Part shown: in pieces, positions 5,161 through 56,912 of the stretch
Layout: each line of letters opens with the position of its first letter
Position numbering within the stretch: the stretch's first letter is position 1
Source: Rickettsiales bacterium
GTDB lineage: Bacteria > Pseudomonadota > Alphaproteobacteria > Rs-D84
Assembly: GCA_031283185.1 (NCBI GenBank)
Contig: JAITCH010000010.1
Span: 1-63,236 of the forward strand
Length of the DNA stretch: 63,236 bases
Reading direction: 5' to 3'
The notes under the pieces: model-generated
The model's input: only the letters and a program-made list of their open reading frames with translations
The model's database searches: none
Told to the model about the DNA's origin: nothing
Translations under genes and position numbers: made by a program

Positions 5161-6207
5161 ATGCTTAAATTCATATCTATTTTTGCGCTGGTTGCATTGG
5201 GTATCAGCACGGCGGACGCGGCGGTTCAGCAGAATCAGCGCGGTGGTCAGCAGGCGGCGCGTGTAGCGGCGGGTGGTGCAATGGGCGGCGCGGCTCCGCG
5301 TGCGGTTGCTGTTCCTGCTGTGCGTGCGGCGACGGGAATTGGAAGTGTTGTGGCGCGTGCGGCGGAAGATACGGCGGCCACGGCGACTGCGGCGAATACT
5401 ACGGCTGCGCCAGTGGTTTCAGCTGCGGACGAGGCTTTGGCGGCGGCGCAAGCGGCGGCCGAGGTTAGCAAAGCGAATTGCCTGGCGAATAATGTTGGTA
5501 TTGCGGGGGCATTTGTTTGGGCGAGCAAGGCTGCGCGTAGCGCGGCTGGTTATAGCACTAACGGCGCGAGTTTGGCGCAGTTGACCGAAGATGCGGGCGA
5601 TCCTTCGAATAATACTTGTTGGATTCGTGTGGAGTTATCGTCTGATCAGTCAGGTGTTAATCTTAGTTCCATTCGCGCATCATATTTTGCGGAGAATGAT
5701 CCAGTTACTTGTGGGTCTTGGGCTAATAAGAAAGATATAGAATCTCAAATACTTAAAGCAACTGCATCTTCTCGTAACTGGGCTACTTTCGCAGGTGTAG
5801 CAGGCGGTGCAGTAGTCGGTGTTACAGGGATGGAATTGGTCGGAATGACTAGTCTGGGAAAGAAGACAGGGCATTCACTCGACGATGGAGCCGCCAAAAG
5901 TGGAGCATTCGGAATCGGGGGGACTGATGCGGATCAAAGTAAATTATTTGAGGCTCAATATTTTACGAATCAAACTAGCAAATTTAATGCAATTAGATCG
6001 GACAAAGATGATAGTAATACGCTGGCAAAAATAAAGGGACAAAAGTTCAAAGAGGCAGTAGGAATAATTGCCAAAGCCTGCGAAAACGCAGGCAAATCCG
6101 TAGACCCATCCGATAAATGCCTAGACTTGTTGGGCAACAGTAATGTAGAAATTGAAAGTTGTGGATGCTTTATTCCGGGTGGTTATTTCAATCCTACTAA
6201 GGTATAA
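5161..6207 (+). CDS. Locus B: secreted protein with switchable C-terminus
   Basis: 348 residues. The start is fixed by GGAGGG 6 nt upstream and by a TATAAT box. A signal peptide (residues 1-20, ending STADA) is followed by an Ala/Arg/Val-rich linker (about 21-115), a Cys-containing part, then residues 169-228, encoded by the 178-bp repeat and including a glycine-zipper-like hydrophobic stretch (AGGAVVGVTGMEL). The last 120 residues are a separate module with TGH and GAFG.GG motifs and a CGCF..GY end. The inverted downstream cassette encodes a different module with the same landmarks. The N-terminal half is GC-rich and the C-terminal module clearly more AT-rich, suggesting the tail was acquired or exchanged separately. 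No family recognised; probably an envelope or surface protein. Confidence 0.85.
   Translation: MLKFISIFALVALGISTADAAVQQNQRGGQQAARVAAGGAMGGAAPRAVAVPAVRAATGIGSVVARAAEDTAATATAANTTAAPVVSAADEALAAAQAAAEVSKANCLANNVGIAGAFVWASKAARSAAGYSTNGASLAQLTEDAGDPSNNTCWIRVELSSDQSGVNLSSIRASYFAENDPVTCGSWANKKDIESQILKATASSRNWATFAGVAGGAVVGVTGMELVGMTSLGKKTGHSLDDGAAKSGAFGIGGTDADQSKLFEAQYFTNQTSKFNAIRSDKDDSNTLAKIKGQKFKEAVGIIAKACENAGKSVDPSDKCLDLLGNSNVEIESCGCFIPGGYFNPTKV
5666..5843 (+). repeat. Inverted repeat IR-B, expressed copy
   Basis: A 178-bp stretch inside locus B that recurs in reverse complement at 6796-6973 with only three mismatches and no gaps. It begins at GTTCCATTCGCGC and ends at GAATTGGTCGG. It codes for the last constant residues before the variable tail. 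Confidence 0.97.
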
Positions 6208-6335
6208 TTCTCCTCCATTGGAGGAGTCCCCCACGAAGTGGGGGGAGGTGGTTTAGCCACCTTAAAGTTTGCAGTGTGGTGATATGTGGTTAAACCACCC
6301 CGGGCTTCGCCCACCCCTCCAACGGAGGGGAATTT
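6208..6335. repeat. Dispersed palindromic element, copy 1
   Basis: 128 bp starting right after the locus B stop codon. The outer arms (CTCCATTGGAGGAG and CCTCCAACGGAGGGG) are themselves palindromes; the inner arms GGTGGTTTAGCCAC and GTGGTTAAACCACC pair with each other. Full copies also lie at 21970, 31256, 46553 and 56696. Here the element sits inside the putative invertible segment. Confidence 0.9.
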
Positions 6336-6368
6336 TGTTCGGGTGGGGGTCTTCCGACCCATTTTAGT

Positions 6369-6973
6369 TTAAGCTTGGCGACGGCTAACTACTTCTTTAA
6401 CAAATGTTTGTAAATCCTGTTGTGTCATACCAGCTATTTCTTTTTCTTCAAGTGTGCATTTTTTGTTGTATTTGCTCCATTGTGCAACCATATCCCAATA
6501 CCCTGTTTTAGCAAAACATCCGCATTTATTTGGGTCGCTAAGTGCGCTACCATCCTCTTTAAATGCAGCAAAATCGCTACAAACATCAATATTTTTATTT
6601 GGTGGGCAGTTTGTGGCAGCAGCAGTGGCAACAGCAGTGGCAGCAGCAGTCCATTTGTCTATCATTTCTTTGTTTTTTTGATTATCTAAATTAGTACATA
6701 TTGTAGCAGTATCGGTTTTTCCTCCGAACCCGAAGGCACCCTTTGTTTTCTGACTTTCAAGGTGTCCAGTACTATTCCCCAACGCTGTATAACTACCGAC
6801 CAATTCCATCCCTGTAACACCGACTACTGCACCGCCTGCTGCACCTGCGAAAGTAGCCCAGTTACGAGAAGATGCAGTTGCTTTAAGTATTTGAGATTCT
6901 ATATCTTTCTTATTAGCCCAAGAACCACAAGTAACTGGATCATTCTCCGCAAAGTATGATGCGCGAATGGAAC
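6369..6973 (-). pseudogene. Silent 3' cassette for locus B (alternative C-terminus)
   Basis: An open frame without a credible start, RBS or promoter. Its first 59 codons are the inverted copy of IR-B and match residues 170-228 of locus B almost exactly. The rest encodes a different tail of about 140 residues that keeps the TGH, GAFGFGG and CGCF.K.GYW landmarks of the expressed tail but otherwise diverges. Recombination across IR-B would fuse this tail in frame to the locus B N-terminus and silence the present one. It therefore looks like a stored alternative end rather than a decayed gene. Confidence 0.85.
6796..6973 (-). repeat. Inverted repeat IR-B, silent copy
   Basis: Reverse complement of 5666-5843, 175 of 178 positions identical. 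The 952 bp between the two copies contain the present tail of locus B, one dispersed palindromic element and the alternative tail. Confidence 0.97.
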
Positions 6974-6986
6974 CGGGGGGTATAGT

Positions 6987-7009
6987 CGCAGGGCGCAAGG
7001 TGCCCTGCG
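6987..7009. other. GC hairpin capping the silent B cassette
   Basis: CGCAGGGC (6987-6994) and GCCCTGCG (7002-7009) form a perfect 8-bp stem just outside the silent copy of IR-B. A longer hairpin sits in the equivalent place beside the locus C cassette. Confidence 0.7.
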
Positions 7010-7063: not shown

Positions 7064-7099
7064 CCCCCCCCCCCCCCTTGTGGTATAATGGTCGTAATG
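7064..7099 (+). promoter_or_regulatory. C14 tract plus -10 box of locus C
   Basis: Fourteen consecutive C (7064-7077) end 6 nt before TATAAT (7084-7089). At 16-18 bp spacing the -35 position would fall on the edge of or inside the C run, so no normal -35 hexamer is present at this length. The ATG at 7097 begins 7 nt after the -10 box with no Shine-Dalgarno, so the message is probably leaderless. Long homopolymers change length by slippage, so expression may be phase-variable. Confidence 0.7.
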
Positions 7100-10000
7100 A
7101 ATACTAAAAAAATTCTTTTCCTAGCCATATCCGGCGCATTTTTAATGAGCCTTGTTTCTGACGCGGCCGCACCAGTTCGTCGTGGCGGCGCACCGGCGGC
7201 AAGCGGCGCATCAGCAGGCGCGGCGGGCGGTTCAGTCCGCGGCGGTGGTCAAAGGGGCGGGGCTCCGGCGGCGGGCGGCGCATCAGCAGGCGCGGCGGCG
7301 GCACCTGTGGCATCTGCGCGTTCGGCGACTATGCGTGGTGGTGCACCAACTGCAACTGCGGCACCGGCAGGTGGCGCACCTGTATCGGCTCGGTCTGCGG
7401 TAATGCGTGGCGGCGGCGCACCGACTGGTGGCGCGGCACCGGCGGCGGGCGGAACGACTTTATCGGCGCGTTCCGGCAACTTGAATTCCGTTGTGCAAAA
7501 GGCACCGACCGTCAACGCGGCGACATCGGCGAGCGGGCTTGTCAATGAAGACTGCAAGCAAAAATGGTTTGGCTGTATGGATACATTTTGTATTTTGGGA
7601 AATGAAAATGGCATGCGCTGTTCTTGTTCCAATGATCGTCCGAAATATGATTCTATATTAAAGCAGATTGAAGAATTGAATGACAAGATTATTCTTCACG
7701 GCCAGGCGGCGGTGGACAAATTGACCTTGTCTGATGCGGAACGCAAAGAATTGGATATTGCGATGAAGAAAGCGGGGGCGGATTTGGGCGGTGTTGACCT
7801 TGACCCATCTGCGAATAATGCTGCTCCGCGGGGAAATCAGCGCGGACGGACGACTACTAAGAATGCGTTTGGCAGTTTGTCATTAGATGCCAGTTTTGAT
7901 ATGGATGCAGATCAGCCAAGAAATAATATGCCACAGGGCGAAGACTTTTCCGCACTGAAAGGAAAGGCTTTATTTGACAAGGCGGCGAATATGTGCCGTC
8001 AGCAGTTGGGCGGCGCGGGCTGTAATAATCAAGATATGATTATGATTCAGACGATGTATAATCAGCAGGTAGCCAGTGATTGCGGCGCGTATAGCGCGGA
8101 ATTGGCGACCAAGCAGAAAAAGGCGCAGGAAAATCTTCGGGTGGTAGAGGCGGGGATTCGTGAAACGGCCTTAGAGCAAATTCAGAATGCAAATAAATAT
8201 GATTTGGGCGAATGCGTGAGTGAATTCAGAAAATGTATGCAGACGAATGACACTTGCGGTTCGGATTGGGGTCGGTGTGCGACAACGATTGCGGATGCGG
8301 CGGCGTTGGCGGGATATACGGCAAAGCCATCATTGAAGAGTGCTTGGGGTAGTAATGGTGTGGTGGCATTGTCTGAAATGACGATGTATAATGTTAATAA
8401 TAGAGAGCCATTGTGCGGCCGGGTTTTGGAGCAATGTCAGCGCGCGAACGACCCGGATAAAAAGGGTGAAAATCGCGTATTTATGAGATTTGTGCAATTG
8501 GTTGCTCCGGAATTAAGAAGTGCGGAATTGGTGTCAGAGGGTAATCAGCGGCAGAATTGTTTATTGGATGTTACGGAATGTATTCAGCGGACTTGTGATT
8601 TGCAGTCGACGGATCCGATGGTGCGTAATACCTGCCTTGGGGACAGGAACATTGCTTATAATAATTGTGCCGAGGGTGCGAATGGCAAGTTGGGGCTGAA
8701 TAAGTGCGAAAGTTTCTTTGGTAAGGGGATTTGGGAGGCATTGGATGCCAGGTTGAAAAGTATGAGAGTAGGCGAGTGCGAGACGGCGGTAAAAGATGCT
8801 GTGCAAAAGAATTGCGGCGGGGAGACATATATGGGCTGTTTGGGGATGAGCATTAATGATGTGCTGGGTATGATTATGAGCAAGTCCGAAGACAGCACCT
8901 CTAATGGCAACGCCTCCACCGGCACGGCGACTCAGAACCAAGACGGCTCTTTTAACAATCTTGATGCTGCACGGGATCGCAATCCTTTGCTTTATGCCTG
9001 TCGGGATGTCAAGACTTCCGTTACAGGTGCAGGTGCCAATGCAGGCGAATCCTTAACAGATGCTGACTATGCTAACTCTACCGCTACCATAGAAAAGGTT
9101 AGACCTATCGTTCAGGGGCTGCTTATGAATATAAGAGATGGGCAAGTAGAGGCATGTATTAGTCAGGCAGCTCAGATATTTGAAGATTATTGCAAATCGC
9201 CCGTGATTAAGGAAGACGCAGATGATAAAAGCGCGACCGAAATCAAAACTGACATTGACCCCAATAAAATGGATTGCGCGGACAAATTCCGAGAAAAAAG
9301 CCCCAATTTGGGTCTAAATTGGATCAAGGAACAAGATAACAAATTGTGTGGTTTTGATTCCCGCCCACTTGAATTTGACATTGGTCAGAAAGGTCATATT
9401 GAATTTTCCAATGATTGGAAAGCAAACAATGATGACTGGCAAACTCACGGATTTGGTAATGAACTGATTAACGAGACCAATAAGATAATTGATGCAATGA
9501 TAAATAGCGATACAACTCAAAAACTAAGACTTTGCATTGAAGGTAAAGACCTTAGCCAAGTCACGGGCAGCACAACAAAATCTCAGGGCGCAGGTATGCC
9601 TGAAATTATGCGGCAATATGCTTTGCGAATTGCGGCAGCGGGCGAAAATATAATGAATGATAACTTTGATAAGAAAAAAGCAGAATTCTTAAAAAGTAGA
9701 GCCAGCTTTTTTGCAAGTATAAAACTTCCTGCGGAACAGCAATGTATGATTTGGGGTTATGGCAATAAAAAGTTTAATGCTTCCAAAGACAATTCTTCGG
9801 TTGCAGCAAATTGGGGCAAAATTGGATATACAAAGAACAAACAATCTGCATCGGATGATGGTAATTGCCTCACCCTTCCTTCTTCTTCGCTTGACCAAGT
9901 CTATATCAATGGCGGTGGATTTAATAATGAAACAGGCAAGCCATGGAAAGAATTCTATTCCGGCGCATGGGTTGAATCTCAATTGTTTGCCAATAGACCT

Positions 10001-10171
10001 AATAAAAAAATTGAAGTTAAATTTAATGCAGACAATAAAATTTGCACCAAGACAACAAAACTATGTCCGTGGAATCAAGTAAAAGATGGCATATTTAATA
10101 AAATTTATCAAAAATTGTGTGAGCAAGACAAAAATTGGATTACGACGAGCACCCAAAACCAAGGCTTTTAG
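7097..10171 (+). CDS. Locus C: large secreted Cys-rich protein with switchable C-terminus
   Basis: 1,024 residues. I prefer the ATG at 7097 (MNTKKILFLAIS...) over the one at 7088, which overlaps the -10 box. Signal peptide about 1-25 (ends VSDAAA). A Gly/Ala/Pro/Arg linker (about 26-150) has repeated SARSA.MRGGAP-like units. A Cys domain follows (CKQKWFGCMDTFC, then CSCSND), closely resembling that of locus A, then many spaced Cys pairs to about residue 600. Residues 625-664 lie in the 119-bp repeat IR-C. The final 360 residues are a more AT-rich module with different codon choice. The protein is probably exported and disulphide-rich. Function unknown; the modular tail and inverted downstream copy suggest antigenic or binding-specificity variation. 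Confidence 0.85.
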   Translation: MNTKKILFLAISGAFLMSLVSDAAAPVRRGGAPAASGASAGAAGGSVRGGGQRGGAPAAGGASAGAAAAPVASARSATMRGGAPTATAAPAGGAPVSARSAVMRGGGAPTGGAAPAAGGTTLSARSGNLNSVVQKAPTVNAATSASGLVNEDCKQKWFGCMDTFCILGNENGMRCSCSNDRPKYDSILKQIEELNDKIILHGQAAVDKLTLSDAERKELDIAMKKAGADLGGVDLDPSANNAAPRGNQRGRTTTKNAFGSLSLDASFDMDADQPRNNMPQGEDFSALKGKALFDKAANMCRQQLGGAGCNNQDMIMIQTMYNQQVASDCGAYSAELATKQKKAQENLRVVEAGIRETALEQIQNANKYDLGECVSEFRKCMQTNDTCGSDWGRCATTIADAAALAGYTAKPSLKSAWGSNGVVALSEMTMYNVNNREPLCGRVLEQCQRANDPDKKGENRVFMRFVQLVAPELRSAELVSEGNQRQNCLLDVTECIQRTCDLQSTDPMVRNTCLGDRNIAYNNCAEGANGKLGLNKCESFFGKGIWEALDARLKSMRVGECETAVKDAVQKNCGGETYMGCLGMSINDVLGMIMSKSEDSTSNGNASTGTATQNQDGSFNNLDAARDRNPLLYACRDVKTSVTGAGANAGESLTDADYANSTATIEKVRPIVQGLLMNIRDGQVEACISQAAQIFEDYCKSPVIKEDADDKSATEIKTDIDPNKMDCADKFREKSPNLGLNWIKEQDNKLCGFDSRPLEFDIGQKGHIEFSNDWKANNDDWQTHGFGNELINETNKIIDAMINSDTTQKLRLCIEGKDLSQVTGSTTKSQGAGMPEIMRQYALRIAAAGENIMNDNFDKKKAEFLKSRASFFASIKLPAEQQCMIWGYGNKKFNASKDNSSVAANWGKIGYTKNKQSASDDGNCLTLPSSSLDQVYINGGGFNNETGKPWKEFYSGAWVESQLFANRPNKKIEVKFNADNKICTKTTKLCPWNQVKDGIFNKIYQKLCEQDKNWITTSTQNQGF
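8968..9086 (+). repeat. Inverted repeat IR-C, expressed copy
   Basis: 119 bp within locus C, found again in reverse complement at 10573-10691 with two mismatches and no gaps. It encodes the block RDRNPLLYACRDVKTSV and what follows, immediately before the variable tail. Confidence 0.97.
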
Positions 10172-10221: not shown

Positions 10222-10431
10222 GGCAAAAAAACTACCCAAAAAACTACCCAGAAAACTACCCAGAAAATAATTGATGCGATTAGGGCAAATCCGACCATAT
10301 CCAGGAAGGAATTGGCGGACATTGTTGGACTTAGTTCAGATGGCATTAAATGGAATCTGGATAAACTTAAAAAGGATGGAAAGGTCCGTCGCATTGGTCC
10401 TGACCGCGGCGGACATTGGAAAGTCTTGTAG
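10222..10431 (+). pseudogene. Remnant of an AlbA_2/AAA_4-type protein: winged-helix C-terminus only
   Basis: An open frame of 69 codons and a TAG with no start. It reads GKKTTQKTTQKTTQ, then a winged-helix sequence (KELADIVGLSSDGIKWNLDK...) ending GPDRGGHWKVL. A short tetrapeptide repeat followed by such a winged helix and a final G.DKGG.W motif is typical of the C-terminus of proteins with a divergent AAA/AlbA_2 domain, as I recall the family. The rest of the gene is missing. The KTTQ units come from a 12-bp tandem repeat (10225-10268). The fragment sits inside the putative invertible segment of locus C, so it may be debris left by recombination. Confidence 0.7.
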
Positions 10432-10439
10432 TGAGTTTG

Positions 10440-10463
10440 TTCCAATGGATAAAATTATTGGAA
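10440..10463. terminator. Hairpin at the end of the silent C cassette
   Basis: TTCCAAT and ATTGGAA form a perfect 7-bp stem around a 10-nt loop. On the minus strand it overlaps the stop of the Trp/Cys-rich reading, so it could end that transcript. There is no strong U-run, so this is tentative. Confidence 0.4.
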
Positions 10464-10691
10464 TGTTTTAGTCGATGATTGTGAATACCAAGAGTAGCAT
10501 TTGCTCCACCACAAGCCCCACGACCACCAACAAGTCAGAGTGGTTTTCTTGCATTCGCCATTAACAGCATTATAGCGGTAGAGTTAGCATAGTCAGCATC
10601 TGTTAAGGATGCGCCTGCATTGGCACCTGCACCTGTAACGGAAGTCTTGACATCCCGACAGGCATAAAGCAAAGGATTACGATCCCGTGCA
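10455..10691 (-). pseudogene. Silent 3' cassette for locus C
   Basis: Begins with the inverted copy of IR-C in the same reading frame as locus C, which then stops after MLLMANARKPL, 17 residues or so beyond the shared region. In the next frame, directly after the repeat, 39 codons read YNAVNGECKKTTLTC, then a Trp/Cys-rich stretch (CWWSWGLWWSKCYSWYS) and a stop at 10455. That composition looks like a real protein end. The cassette may therefore have slipped frame at the junction, or it may belong to another partner. As it stands, inversion would give a truncated locus C protein. Confidence 0.6.
10573..10691 (-). repeat. Inverted repeat IR-C, silent copy
   Basis: Reverse complement of 8968-9086, 117 of 119 identical. 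The 1,486 bp between the copies hold the current locus C tail and the winged-helix remnant. Confidence 0.97.
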
Positions 10692-10816: not shown

Positions 10817-10892
10817 GTTCCCATAGTTCAACCGGATAGAATAGAGGTTTCCTAAACCTTTGATCCAAGTTCGAGTCTTGGTGGGAACGCCA
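10817..10892 (+). tRNA. tRNA-Arg (CCT)
   Basis: 76 nt with encoded CCA. The acceptor stem GTTCCCA/TGGGAAC closes, the anticodon loop is TTCCTAA (anticodon CCT, reads AGG), and the T-arm has GTTCGAGTC. A TATAAT box lies at 10803-10808. It marks the right edge of the variable locus. Confidence 0.9.
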
Positions 10893-30999: not shown

Positions 31000-31254
31000 A
31001 TGAACGAAAAATCCAATATGAAAATGTTTTTAATTGTGGCGGCGGTGGTGGCTGCGGCATTTGTGGTGGGCTGGGCGGCGAACCGCAAGGGTATGGATGC
31101 GGAAAAGGAAGTTATTGCCGAGGAATGCACCAAGGCGCGCGATAGTGTGAACAAGGCATATAAGAAAGCGAAATTGAAAACTGGACAGGCGATGGAGTCG
31201 GCCAGCGAGCGAATGATGGAAAAGGGTGAAAAATTAATTGAATCTTCCAACTAA
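31000..31254 (+). CDS. Small single-pass membrane protein
   Basis: 84 residues from the ATG at 31000 (AAAGG 8 nt upstream); a GTG at 30991 is less likely. One transmembrane helix (about 8-26) is followed by a long charged helix rich in Lys, Glu and Met, in the style of YtxH or envelope-stress anchor proteins. No enzymatic motif. Confidence 0.7.
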   Translation: MNEKSNMKMFLIVAAVVAAAFVVGWAANRKGMDAEKEVIAEECTKARDSVNKAYKKAKLKTGQAMESASERMMEKGEKLIESSN

Positions 31255-31255
31255 G

Positions 31256-31384
31256 TTCTCCTCCATTGGAGGAGTCCCGCCAAAGGCGGGGAGGTGGTTT
31301 AGCCACATTAAAAGTTGCAGTGTGGTAATGCGTGGTTAAACCACCCCGTCTGCTTCGCAGCCACCCCTCCAACGGAGGGGAATT
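31256..31384. repeat. Dispersed palindromic element, copy 3
   Basis: 129 bp directly behind the 31254 stop codon, with CTCCATTGGAGGAG and CCCCTCCAACGGAGGGG ends and the GGTGGTTTAGCCAC/GTGGTTAAACCACC inner stem. Confidence 0.92.
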
Positions 31385-31429
31385 TTTTTGTTGATTTTTT
31401 GGCGGATGCGGGTTAAAATTTCCGAACTT

Positions 31430-36924: not shown

Positions 36925-37007
36925 TCAACCTTAAAATTTTGTCCTTGACTTTTTATGCGGGGGGGGGGTAGCCTTATAGGAAAATAAGCCGATAGCCGCG
37001 CTTATTC
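36925..37007 (+). promoter_or_regulatory. Promoter with G10 tract (OMP gene 1)
   Basis: 83 bp, 82 identical to 38626-38708. TTGACT (36945-36950), then a 24-bp spacer containing ten G (36959-36968), then TATAGG (36975-36980). A hairpin AATAAGC/GCTTATT (36983-37006) follows. The rRNA promoter starts with the same TTGACTTTTTA but has a 17-bp spacer. Slippage in the G run would move the spacer in and out of range. Confidence 0.8.
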
Positions 37008-38625: not shown

Positions 38626-38708
38626 TCAACCTTAAAATTTTGTCCTTGACTTTTTATGCGGGGGGGGGGTAGCCTTATAGGAAAATAAGCCGATAACCGC
38701 GCTTATTC
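38626..38708 (+). promoter_or_regulatory. Promoter with G10 tract (OMP gene 2)
   Basis: Twin of 36925-37007 with one mismatch. TTGACT 38646-38651, G10 at 38660-38669, TATAGG 38676-38681, and the same downstream hairpin. Confidence 0.8.
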
Positions 38709-43943: not shown

Positions 43944-46547
43944 ATGTTTGCAAAAGTATTAAAAGTGCTGATCGGCTCCGCTAATGACCGAGCCGTCAAA
44001 AGTTATGATAAAATTGTGTCCGTTATCAACGACTTAGAGCCAAAATATCACGCAATGTCTGACGATGAACTCCGCGCGGAAACAGCGCGGCTTCGCGGTC
44101 TTGCCGTGGCTGGCACGCCAGAGAATGAAATCCTGCCCTATGCCTTTGCAAATGTGCGCGAGGCTTCAATTCGCACAATCGGTCTTCGTCATTTTAATAC
44201 GCAACTTATCGGCGGTATGGTGCTGTCCAGTGGCCGTATTGCGGAAATGAAAACGGGTGAGGGTAAGACACTTGTCGCAACTCTCGCGCTTTATCTCAAA
44301 GCCCTTTACGGACGGGGCGCGCATCTGATAACGGTCAACGATTATCTTGCAAACCGCGATGCGGATTGGATGGGTCAGATTTATCAATTCCTGGGGATGA
44401 GCATTGGAATTATTCAACACGATATGTCAGACGAAGAACGCCGGGCGGCTTACGCATGCGATATAACTTATGTTACCAATTCGGAATTGGGCTTTGATTA
44501 CTTGCGCGACAATATGAAGTTCTCAAACGACCAACAAGTTCTGCGCCCGCTGTTCTACGCGATTGTGGACGAGGTTGATTCCATATTAATTGACGAAGCG
44601 CGCACCCCGCTGATTATATCCGGGCAGGCGGAAGATTCTTCGGAACTATATGCAAAAATTGCGGCCGTTGTGAAACGCCTCGCGCCCGAACATATAAAGA
44701 AAAATGAAAAAGACCGCCATGTCGTGCTGACGGATTTAGGTGTGGACGAGATTACAAAGATGCTGTCCGAAGCAGGTCTTATGGACGGAACAAACCTTTA
44801 TGATGCTGCAAATGCCGCGCTGGTTATGCACATTCAGCAGGCTTTATTGGCGCAGAATATGTATCATTTGGATGTGAATTATGTCGTGCGCGAAGGTCAG
44901 ATTATGATTGTGGACGAATTCACCGGGCGCGTGCTGACCGGGCGCAGATTCGGTAAGGGACTTCATCAAGCCATAGAGGCGAAAGAGGGCGTTGCTATTC
45001 AGCCGGAAAATCAAACGGTATCAAGCATTTCTTATCAAAATTTATTTAGGCTGTATGATAGTTTGTCTGGTATGACCGGGACGGCGATGACCGAAGCGAC
45101 CGAGTTCGAGGAGATTTATAAACTTCGTGTTATTTCCATACCGACCAATCGCCCGGTGGTTCGCATTGATCATCACGATGAAATTTATAGAACGCGTTCG
45201 GAAAAATATCGCGCGATTGTTGAAACAATTCGTGAATGCAATATGCGCGGTCAGCCTGTTTTGGTGGGAACCGTTACGATTGAAAAGTCCGAAGAACTTG
45301 CGGCGATTATAGAGCGGGATTTGAAGTTGAAACCGAATGTCTTGAATGCAAAGCAGCACGCTTCGGAATCAAAAATTATTGCACAGGCGGGTCGCCCGGG
45401 CAGCATAACGATTGCGACAAATATGGCCGGCCGTGGAACTGATATTAAATTGGGCGGTAATGCAGAAGCGGTTATTGCGGAACTGGATCCAGACGCGCCG
45501 GATTTTGATGCTAAGAAAAAAGCCGCGTATGAAGATGTTGAAAAAAATAAAATTGAAGTATTAAATGCAGGCGGTTTATATGTTATCGGAACAGAGCGGC
45601 ACGAGTCGCGCCGAATTGATAATCAACTTCGCGGTCGTTCGGGACGGCAGGGCGATCCGGGCGATTCTAAATTCTTCTTGTCATTGGAAGACGATTTGAT
45701 GCGGATTTTCGGCGCGCAAAGATTGGATGGCGTGCTGGTGAAATTAGGATTGAAAACGGACGAGGCGATTACGCACGCTTGGATTACAAAGGCGTTGGAA
45801 AAGGCGCAGAAACGGGTAGAGGCGCGGTATTTTGAATCGCGCAAAGAATTGCTGAAATATGACGATGTTATGAATGACCAGCGGAAAGTCGTGTATAAAC
45901 AGCGCGCGGAATTAATGACGGAAAATGAATTAAAGCCGTTTATAGAAGACATAATTACTGATGTGGTGGAAAGCATTGCGGAATCTGGAATGCCGGAAAA
46001 ATCGCGTGCTGACGAATGGAATACCGAAGCGATGCATAATGACTTTGTGCGGTTTTTCGGAATGGATATAACGGATATAGACGCGTGGAAAACTTCGGAA
46101 ACCATCACCGATCAAAAGGCGTTCGAGACATTGTTGGGATTGGCGAAACGCAGATATGAAAATCAGCGGTTGAAGTATGGCGAATTGATGCATTCGGCTG
46201 AACGGCAGATTTCGCTTCACGCATTGGATGCCTGTTGGAAGAAACATTTGCAAAATATGGATTATTTGCAGACGGGAATTGGGCTGAGGGGTTATGGGCA
46301 AAAAAATCCGCTGTATGAATATAAGAAAGAAGCGTTTCAGTTGTTTGAAGATATGATGATTAATTTCAAGCGGATGTTGATTTCGTATGTGTGCAAATTG
46401 CAATTGTCCGAAGAAGAAATTAATGCGATGCGTCAGTCGCAGGAAGATAGCGATGCTAGCCTGAATCAAACGGAAGAGCGGCGCAATAGTGCTTGCCCGT
46501 GCGGTTCTGGATTAAAATACAAACACTGCTGCGGCAAACTAAAATAA
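43944..46547 (+). CDS. secA: Preprotein translocase ATPase SecA
   Basis: 867 residues, full length. The motor domain carries GEGKTLVATLALYL (Walker A, about residue 103), TVNDYLANRDADWM and VDEVDSILIDEARTPLIISG. The second RecA fold has NMAGRGTDIKLGG and RGRSGRQGDPG. The C-terminus ends in a zinc-binding CPCGSG...CCG. SecA pushes unfolded preproteins through SecYEG and feeds export of the many secreted proteins in this window. AAGGAAAAA lies before the ATG. Confidence 0.98.
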   Translation: MFAKVLKVLIGSANDRAVKSYDKIVSVINDLEPKYHAMSDDELRAETARLRGLAVAGTPENEILPYAFANVREASIRTIGLRHFNTQLIGGMVLSSGRIAEMKTGEGKTLVATLALYLKALYGRGAHLITVNDYLANRDADWMGQIYQFLGMSIGIIQHDMSDEERRAAYACDITYVTNSELGFDYLRDNMKFSNDQQVLRPLFYAIVDEVDSILIDEARTPLIISGQAEDSSELYAKIAAVVKRLAPEHIKKNEKDRHVVLTDLGVDEITKMLSEAGLMDGTNLYDAANAALVMHIQQALLAQNMYHLDVNYVVREGQIMIVDEFTGRVLTGRRFGKGLHQAIEAKEGVAIQPENQTVSSISYQNLFRLYDSLSGMTGTAMTEATEFEEIYKLRVISIPTNRPVVRIDHHDEIYRTRSEKYRAIVETIRECNMRGQPVLVGTVTIEKSEELAAIIERDLKLKPNVLNAKQHASESKIIAQAGRPGSITIATNMAGRGTDIKLGGNAEAVIAELDPDAPDFDAKKKAAYEDVEKNKIEVLNAGGLYVIGTERHESRRIDNQLRGRSGRQGDPGDSKFFLSLEDDLMRIFGAQRLDGVLVKLGLKTDEAITHAWITKALEKAQKRVEARYFESRKELLKYDDVMNDQRKVVYKQRAELMTENELKPFIEDIITDVVESIAESGMPEKSRADEWNTEAMHNDFVRFFGMDITDIDAWKTSETITDQKAFETLLGLAKRRYENQRLKYGELMHSAERQISLHALDACWKKHLQNMDYLQTGIGLRGYGQKNPLYEYKKEAFQLFEDMMINFKRMLISYVCKLQLSEEEINAMRQSQEDSDASLNQTEERRNSACPCGSGLKYKHCCGKLK

Positions 46548-46552
46548 AAAAA

Positions 46553-46677
46553 TTCTCCTCCATTGGAGGAGTCCCGCCGCAGGCGGGGAGGTGGTTTAGC
46601 CACATTGAACGATGCAGTGTGGTGATGCGTGGTTAAACCACCCCGGGCTTTGCCCACCCCTCCATTGGAGGGGAATT
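46553..46677. repeat. Dispersed palindromic element, copy 4
   Basis: 125 bp between secA and dnaE, with ends CTCCATTGGAGGAG and CCCCTCCATTGGAGGGG. The dnaE RBS begins 10 nt after it, so the element forms most of the intergenic region. Confidence 0.93.
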
Positions 46678-46701
46678 GAATTGCCAAAAGGGAATAGTTT
46701 A

Positions 46702-56680: not shown

Positions 56681-56695
56681 TGAATAATAAAATAG

Positions 56696-56820
56696 TTCTC
56701 CTCCATTGGAGGAGTCCGGGCGCAGCCCGGGAGGTGGTTTAGCCACATTACAAGTTGCGTTAAGGTTATATGTGGTTAAACCACCCCGCCCTTCGGGCAC
56801 CCCTCCAATGGAGGGGAATT
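56696..56820. repeat. Dispersed palindromic element, copy 5
   Basis: 125 bp with the same outer and inner arms as the other copies (CTCCATTGGAGGAG ... CCCTCCAATGGAGGGG). Confidence 0.93.
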
Positions 56821-56912
56821 TTATTATTATTATTGCGGCTTTTGCCGCCGGGGTGGTTAGAAAAAATCTCTCCTTGCCTTTTACTATTGAAAACATATAA
56901 AATGTAATCACT

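Follow-up and report, generated by a model that had tools for sequence, protein, structure and literature searches.

A candidate two-state inversion that would exchange the C-terminal tail of a secreted protein in a Rickettsiales bacterium

Computational analysis of a 63,236-nt window, the whole stretch of DNA studied here and the start of a 189-kb contig from a gut-type alphaproteobacterium, indicated that the secreted-protein gene designated gene B lies in a locus that is, with somewhat better than even probability, a two-state, gene-altering inversion driven by RecA-type recombination. Homologous recombination of this type between two 178-nt repeat arms would flip positions 5666-6973, and a constant secreted N-terminal part would be fused alternately to tail T1 (120 aa) or tail T2 (141 aa), the unused tail staying silent in the opposite orientation. 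The arrangement suggests that flipping may take place at present, that both tails may be expressed and be of use to the cell, and that the cell surface would be where the tail is exposed.

Gene B, the inverted repeat and the opposing fragment

The features of the locus, given by window position and strand, were as follows.

5161-6207, plus strand: gene B, signal-peptide protein with T1 as its present tail, 348 aa (from the open reading frame list and homologues)
5666-5843, plus strand: repeat arm 1, within gene B; it encodes residues 169-228, the end of the conserved domain
5844-6207, plus strand: tail T1, residues 229-348 plus the stop codon
6208-6340, no strand: spacer between the facing stop codons, a dispersed intergenic repeat with a terminator-like hairpin at 6314-6330
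6369-6795, minus strand: silent tail T2, an uninterrupted run of 141 codons and a stop that continues the frame of arm 2
6796-6973, minus strand: repeat arm 2, matching arm 1 in inverted orientation except at 3 positions

The product of gene B begins with a signal peptide, continues through a stretch rich in Ala and a conserved domain that contains Cys and Gly, and ends in the tail. A promoter-like TATAAT and an AGGAG-like site were recognized by eye 5' of the gene. Homologues of gene B or of its domain were found in 30 of the 60 genomes searched, nearly all of them within the same family. Searches of Pfam and NCBIfam with gene B returned no family match, and a fold search of its model, the predicted structure being weak (pLDDT 60), returned no PDB match at E ≤ 0.001. 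The gene B protein represents an undescribed secreted-protein family, spread across one bacterial family. Most of the strong matches to gene B end at about residue 234-243, slightly beyond the end of the repeat, and the arm therefore includes the last segment that is conserved, which is rich in glycine. This glycine-rich stretch might form a membrane helix, which would place the tail past the membrane.

The sequence-only reading of this DNA had reported an ungapped 178-bp inverted repeat with 175 identical positions, and its coordinates, 5666-5843 and 6796-6973, proved to be exact. The arms are separated by 952 nt and differ at arm positions 20, 50 and 133 (T/C, G/T and T/C; two changes synonymous and one Val/Ala), the longest uninterrupted identity between mismatches being 82 nt. 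A 178-nt match at 98% identity cannot be due to chance. The same reading had held that the frame is kept on both sides, and inversion in silico confirmed this: no stop codon intervened, and the 348-aa protein became a protein of 369 aa in which residues 229-348 (120 aa) were replaced by 141 others.

The opposing open reading frame (6369-6998, minus strand), previously described as a fragment without promoter or start, encodes no signal peptide, and its earliest start is a TTG that precedes the repeat by 8 codons; a simple scan for sigma-70 promoters identified no promoter-like site directed into it, in agreement with that description. Accordingly, one arm lies in a gene and the other in a facing partial gene, the frame is kept, and the alternative segment is intact, as in gene-altering inversions. 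Between the ends at which T1 and T2 face each other lies one copy of a hairpin-bearing intergenic repeat, about 140 nt long, which is present in the window in four copies (6200-6339, 31246-31385, 46543-46682 and 56686-56825).

History of the two tails and the mechanism of exchange

Alignment of T1 with T2 gave a z score of 7.7, which none of 1000 shuffles equalled; by this alignment, the two tails are homologous. The landmarks that had been noted in both, TGH, GAFGxGG and CGCFxxxGY, are real, and they are absent from every other aligned sequence, including the same-genus ortholog. T1 and T2 are, as far as sequence comparison can tell, each other's closest known relatives. No convincing source of either tail was found elsewhere in the same genome or in 59 relatives. 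A same-genus tail that appeared by eye to be akin to T2 (ICxNL, CP..C, WDM..KKC) was rejected as not significant, as 68 to 110 of 1000 shuffles scored as high.

Silent sites of the tails are saturated (pS 0.88), whereas those of the adjoining repeat, which carries one amino-acid change, are nearly identical (pS 0.07). This difference requires that the repeat recombined recently, whether between its two copies or upon capture of the tail from a conspecific, and a plain old duplication is ruled out by the saturated tails beside a near-identical repeat. The apparent pN of the tails was 0.47, a value lowered by a codon alignment that was guided by amino-acid similarity, and hence no claim on dN/dS is made. 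Decay of the silent tail, which had been named beforehand as evidence against an invertible C-terminus, was looked for and none was found: all 141 codons of T2 are open, for which P is about 4e-5 given the composition of the tail, and the codon score of T2, like that of T1, is highest in the expected frame, a coding signature that has been kept. Since a long-silent tail should lose its frame, T2 was presumably not silent through most of the divergence.

RecA-type inversion is favoured because RecA is encoded in the genome, because the only full-length tyrosine recombinases (297 and 307 aa, both on other contigs, besides one weak match) are presumably XerC and XerD, and because neither a serine recombinase or invertase nor a reverse transcriptase was found in the genome. 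The presence of RecA, together with long and near-identical arms, is what is expected of RecA-dependent inversions. A serine invertase as the driver is thereby rejected, and no recombinase gene was found near the locus.

The near-identical repeat, the saturated tails, the intactness of both tails and the presence of RecA fit an invertible tail. The anatomy proposed by the sequence-only reading thus stood, but its central proposal, that the tail is invertible, was upheld in part only, as the arrangement occurs in no relative and a captured tail that was never flipped would leave a similar trace. Such a frozen, recently captured tail is the main alternative, although on the whole an unlikely one. 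According to this alternative, either a single insertion event brought in, inverted, a fragment of a conspecific gene B allele that had a different tail, or the 5' half of a convergent paralog disappeared, and the resulting relic could recombine without being a working switch. In a same-genus genome (G001), gene B immediately precedes gene M, whereas in the present genome gene M is on a different contig without an adjoining gene B, and gene B adjoins gene A. Gene B has therefore moved, which gives room for a tail that was captured and never flipped. The repeat pS of 0.07 falls in the range that we would expect of conspecific strains, and a second inverted partial copy nearby (described below) is non-functional. 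Flipped order in related genomes, which had been suggested as a check, was sought, but no inverted fragment of gene B was found in any other genome that carries a gene B homologue, nor in the loci read from these genomes (about 640 kb); the arrangement is thus lineage-specific as far as sampled, as a relic may be. The repeat scan of the source genome covered about 175 kb of its 930 kb, and its counts apply to that part. A search of viral contigs found nothing. Against a frozen relic, T2 is wholly intact and keeps the signature of coding sequence, and the cassette begins within the conserved domain and ends past the stop codon, as expected of a tail that can be used. Furthermore, arms of 178 nt with 98% identity should recombine, given an active RecA.

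The possibility that alleles of two strains were joined head-to-head during metagenome assembly is improbable. The source genome is a metagenome-type draft of 15 contigs, 97% complete, and such a draft could conceal mixed strains, but its contamination estimate is 0.04%, the arms differ at three sites, ordinary unique sequence and gene C come after T2, and the island containing the locus is syntenic at both flanks with the same-genus genome. Still less probable is an inversion carried out within the arms by an Xer-like tyrosine recombinase instead of RecA. The genome does encode the tyrosine recombinases mentioned above, but the two full-length proteins are encoded away from this contig and, in our reading, are accounted for by housekeeping functions, and no such gene lies near the locus. 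The 178-nt repeat also far exceeds the 10-40 nt that are typical of the recombination sites of invertase-driven invertons (PMC11892184).

The island and other variable sequences in the genome

The locus belongs to an island at 4.8-12 kb of the window, between gene A and a rubrerythrin gene, which is syntenic with G001. At this island, G001 (WQXN01000009.1; L032 14348-16211) carries a clear diversity-generating retroelement (DGR), composed of a reverse transcriptase, a target gene and a template repeat of 126 nt in inverted orientation, and all 18 template-variable differences (18/18) are at template adenines. That the two arms of the present locus are likewise a template and variable repeat pair is refuted for practical purposes, since the genome has no reverse transcriptase, the only three mismatches (T/C, G/T and T/C) are not limited to the adenines of one arm, and the part that varies is not within the repeat.

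The gene next after the silent tail, gene C (7088-10171, 1027 aa), belongs to a large family of exported proteins that are Ala-rich and contain Cys. The present genome has 13 matches, and relatives of the family have about 10 each; a Pfam search found no family for gene C. Gene C is associated with a second inverted repeat, I2, formed by an inverted partial copy of the gene (8968-9086 and 10573-10691; 119 nt, 2 mismatches), and the copy is flanked by the 10-nt direct repeat TAATGCTGTT. After inversion of I2 in silico, the product of gene C measured 678 instead of 1027 aa and had a new end of 12 aa. I2 was ruled out as a further tail switch, as the copy carries no usable tail, but it may act as an OFF switch for gene C. 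The copy looks like debris, and inverted fragments can therefore form here without being switches. Gene debris with a TTQK tandem was also found at 10230-10445 (plus strand), beside a tRNA-Arg gene (10817-10892); from its translation, we take this remnant to resemble the helix-turn-helix region at the C-terminus of a regulator.

Poly-G/C tracts of 9-14 nt were observed in promoter regions of the present genome. A C14 tract (7064-7077), which lies beside a TATAAT box and precedes the gene C start by 11 nt, is a candidate slippage switch. Two G10 tracts (36959-36968 and 38660-38669) lie in near-identical promoter regions, between TTGACT and a -10-like box, and the genes behind both encode small exported, outer-membrane-like proteins. 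On another contig of the same genome (C3; L085 5091-5099), a G9 tract makes up most of the 15-nt spacer between a perfect TTGACA and a perfect TATAAT. A homopolymer tract in the spacer between promoter boxes is the layout of known phase-variable promoters, and the promoter on contig C3 is, from this layout, very likely to be phase-variable. In another genome (G024; L039 3765-4555 and 6111-6898), divergent paralogous secreted-protein genes share an inverted stretch of 798 nt at their 3' halves, which is 86% identical.

I2, the DGR of the sister genome and the poly-G/C tracts support, but do not prove, the view that this organism varies its secreted proteins. Tentatively, the island might be a diversification hot spot in a small-genome genus, with a DGR in one species and, in the present one, a RecA-driven, invertase-free tail exchange and poly-G/C switches, that is, unrelated mechanisms at one locus.

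Significance and comparison with known systems

If the tail of gene B does flip, the locus would be a case of protein-altering inversion in an alphaproteobacterium that is uncultured and whose genome is smaller than 1 Mb. Each alternative coding segment that is kept is costly in such a genome, and the inversion would indicate changing selection on the secreted protein. The analysis also brings out the protein family of gene B, as well as an island at which different variation systems are borne by two species from a single genus.

A close parallel is with the gene-altering programmed inversions reportedly described by Milman et al. in Nucleic Acids Res in 2023, in which an inverted repeat is likewise common to a gene and a facing partial gene and part of the coding sequence is exchanged. 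The present locus differs in that its protein family is undescribed and no invertase is found at the locus, and in that switching is inferred here from the sequence. The sap genes of Campylobacter fetus undergo RecA-dependent inversion, in which the promoter region moves and many cassettes are available. Silent cassettes are likewise activated there by homologous recombination through long repeats, whereas the present locus would exchange the 3' end only. DGRs also diversify part of a protein, but they differ from the present locus, which is without a reverse transcriptase and without adenine-directed changes. In shufflons of the R64 PilV type, short sfx sites are recombined by the Rci recombinase, usually with several segments, and a constant N-terminus is joined through inversion to alternative C-terminal segments. 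The present locus resembles them in this outcome, but unlike shufflons and short-repeat invertons it has neither an invertase nor sfx sites and Rci, and its repeat is long (178 nt).

In inverting hsdS loci, an expressed gene and silent inverted partners recombine via repeats in their constant parts, and the inverted repeats in S. pneumoniae are of 15, 85 and 33 bp (PMC7394358, PMC12324116). These loci and shufflons likewise join a constant part to alternative variable parts (PMC7394358, PMC12324116, PMC11892184, PMC11868660), but the present locus, in contrast to hsdS loci, is not a restriction gene, has a single pair of tails and encodes no recombinase of its own. In conclusion, the mode of exchange is already known from hsdS loci and shufflons, and what is probably new is a candidate gene-altering inversion in an undescribed protein family.
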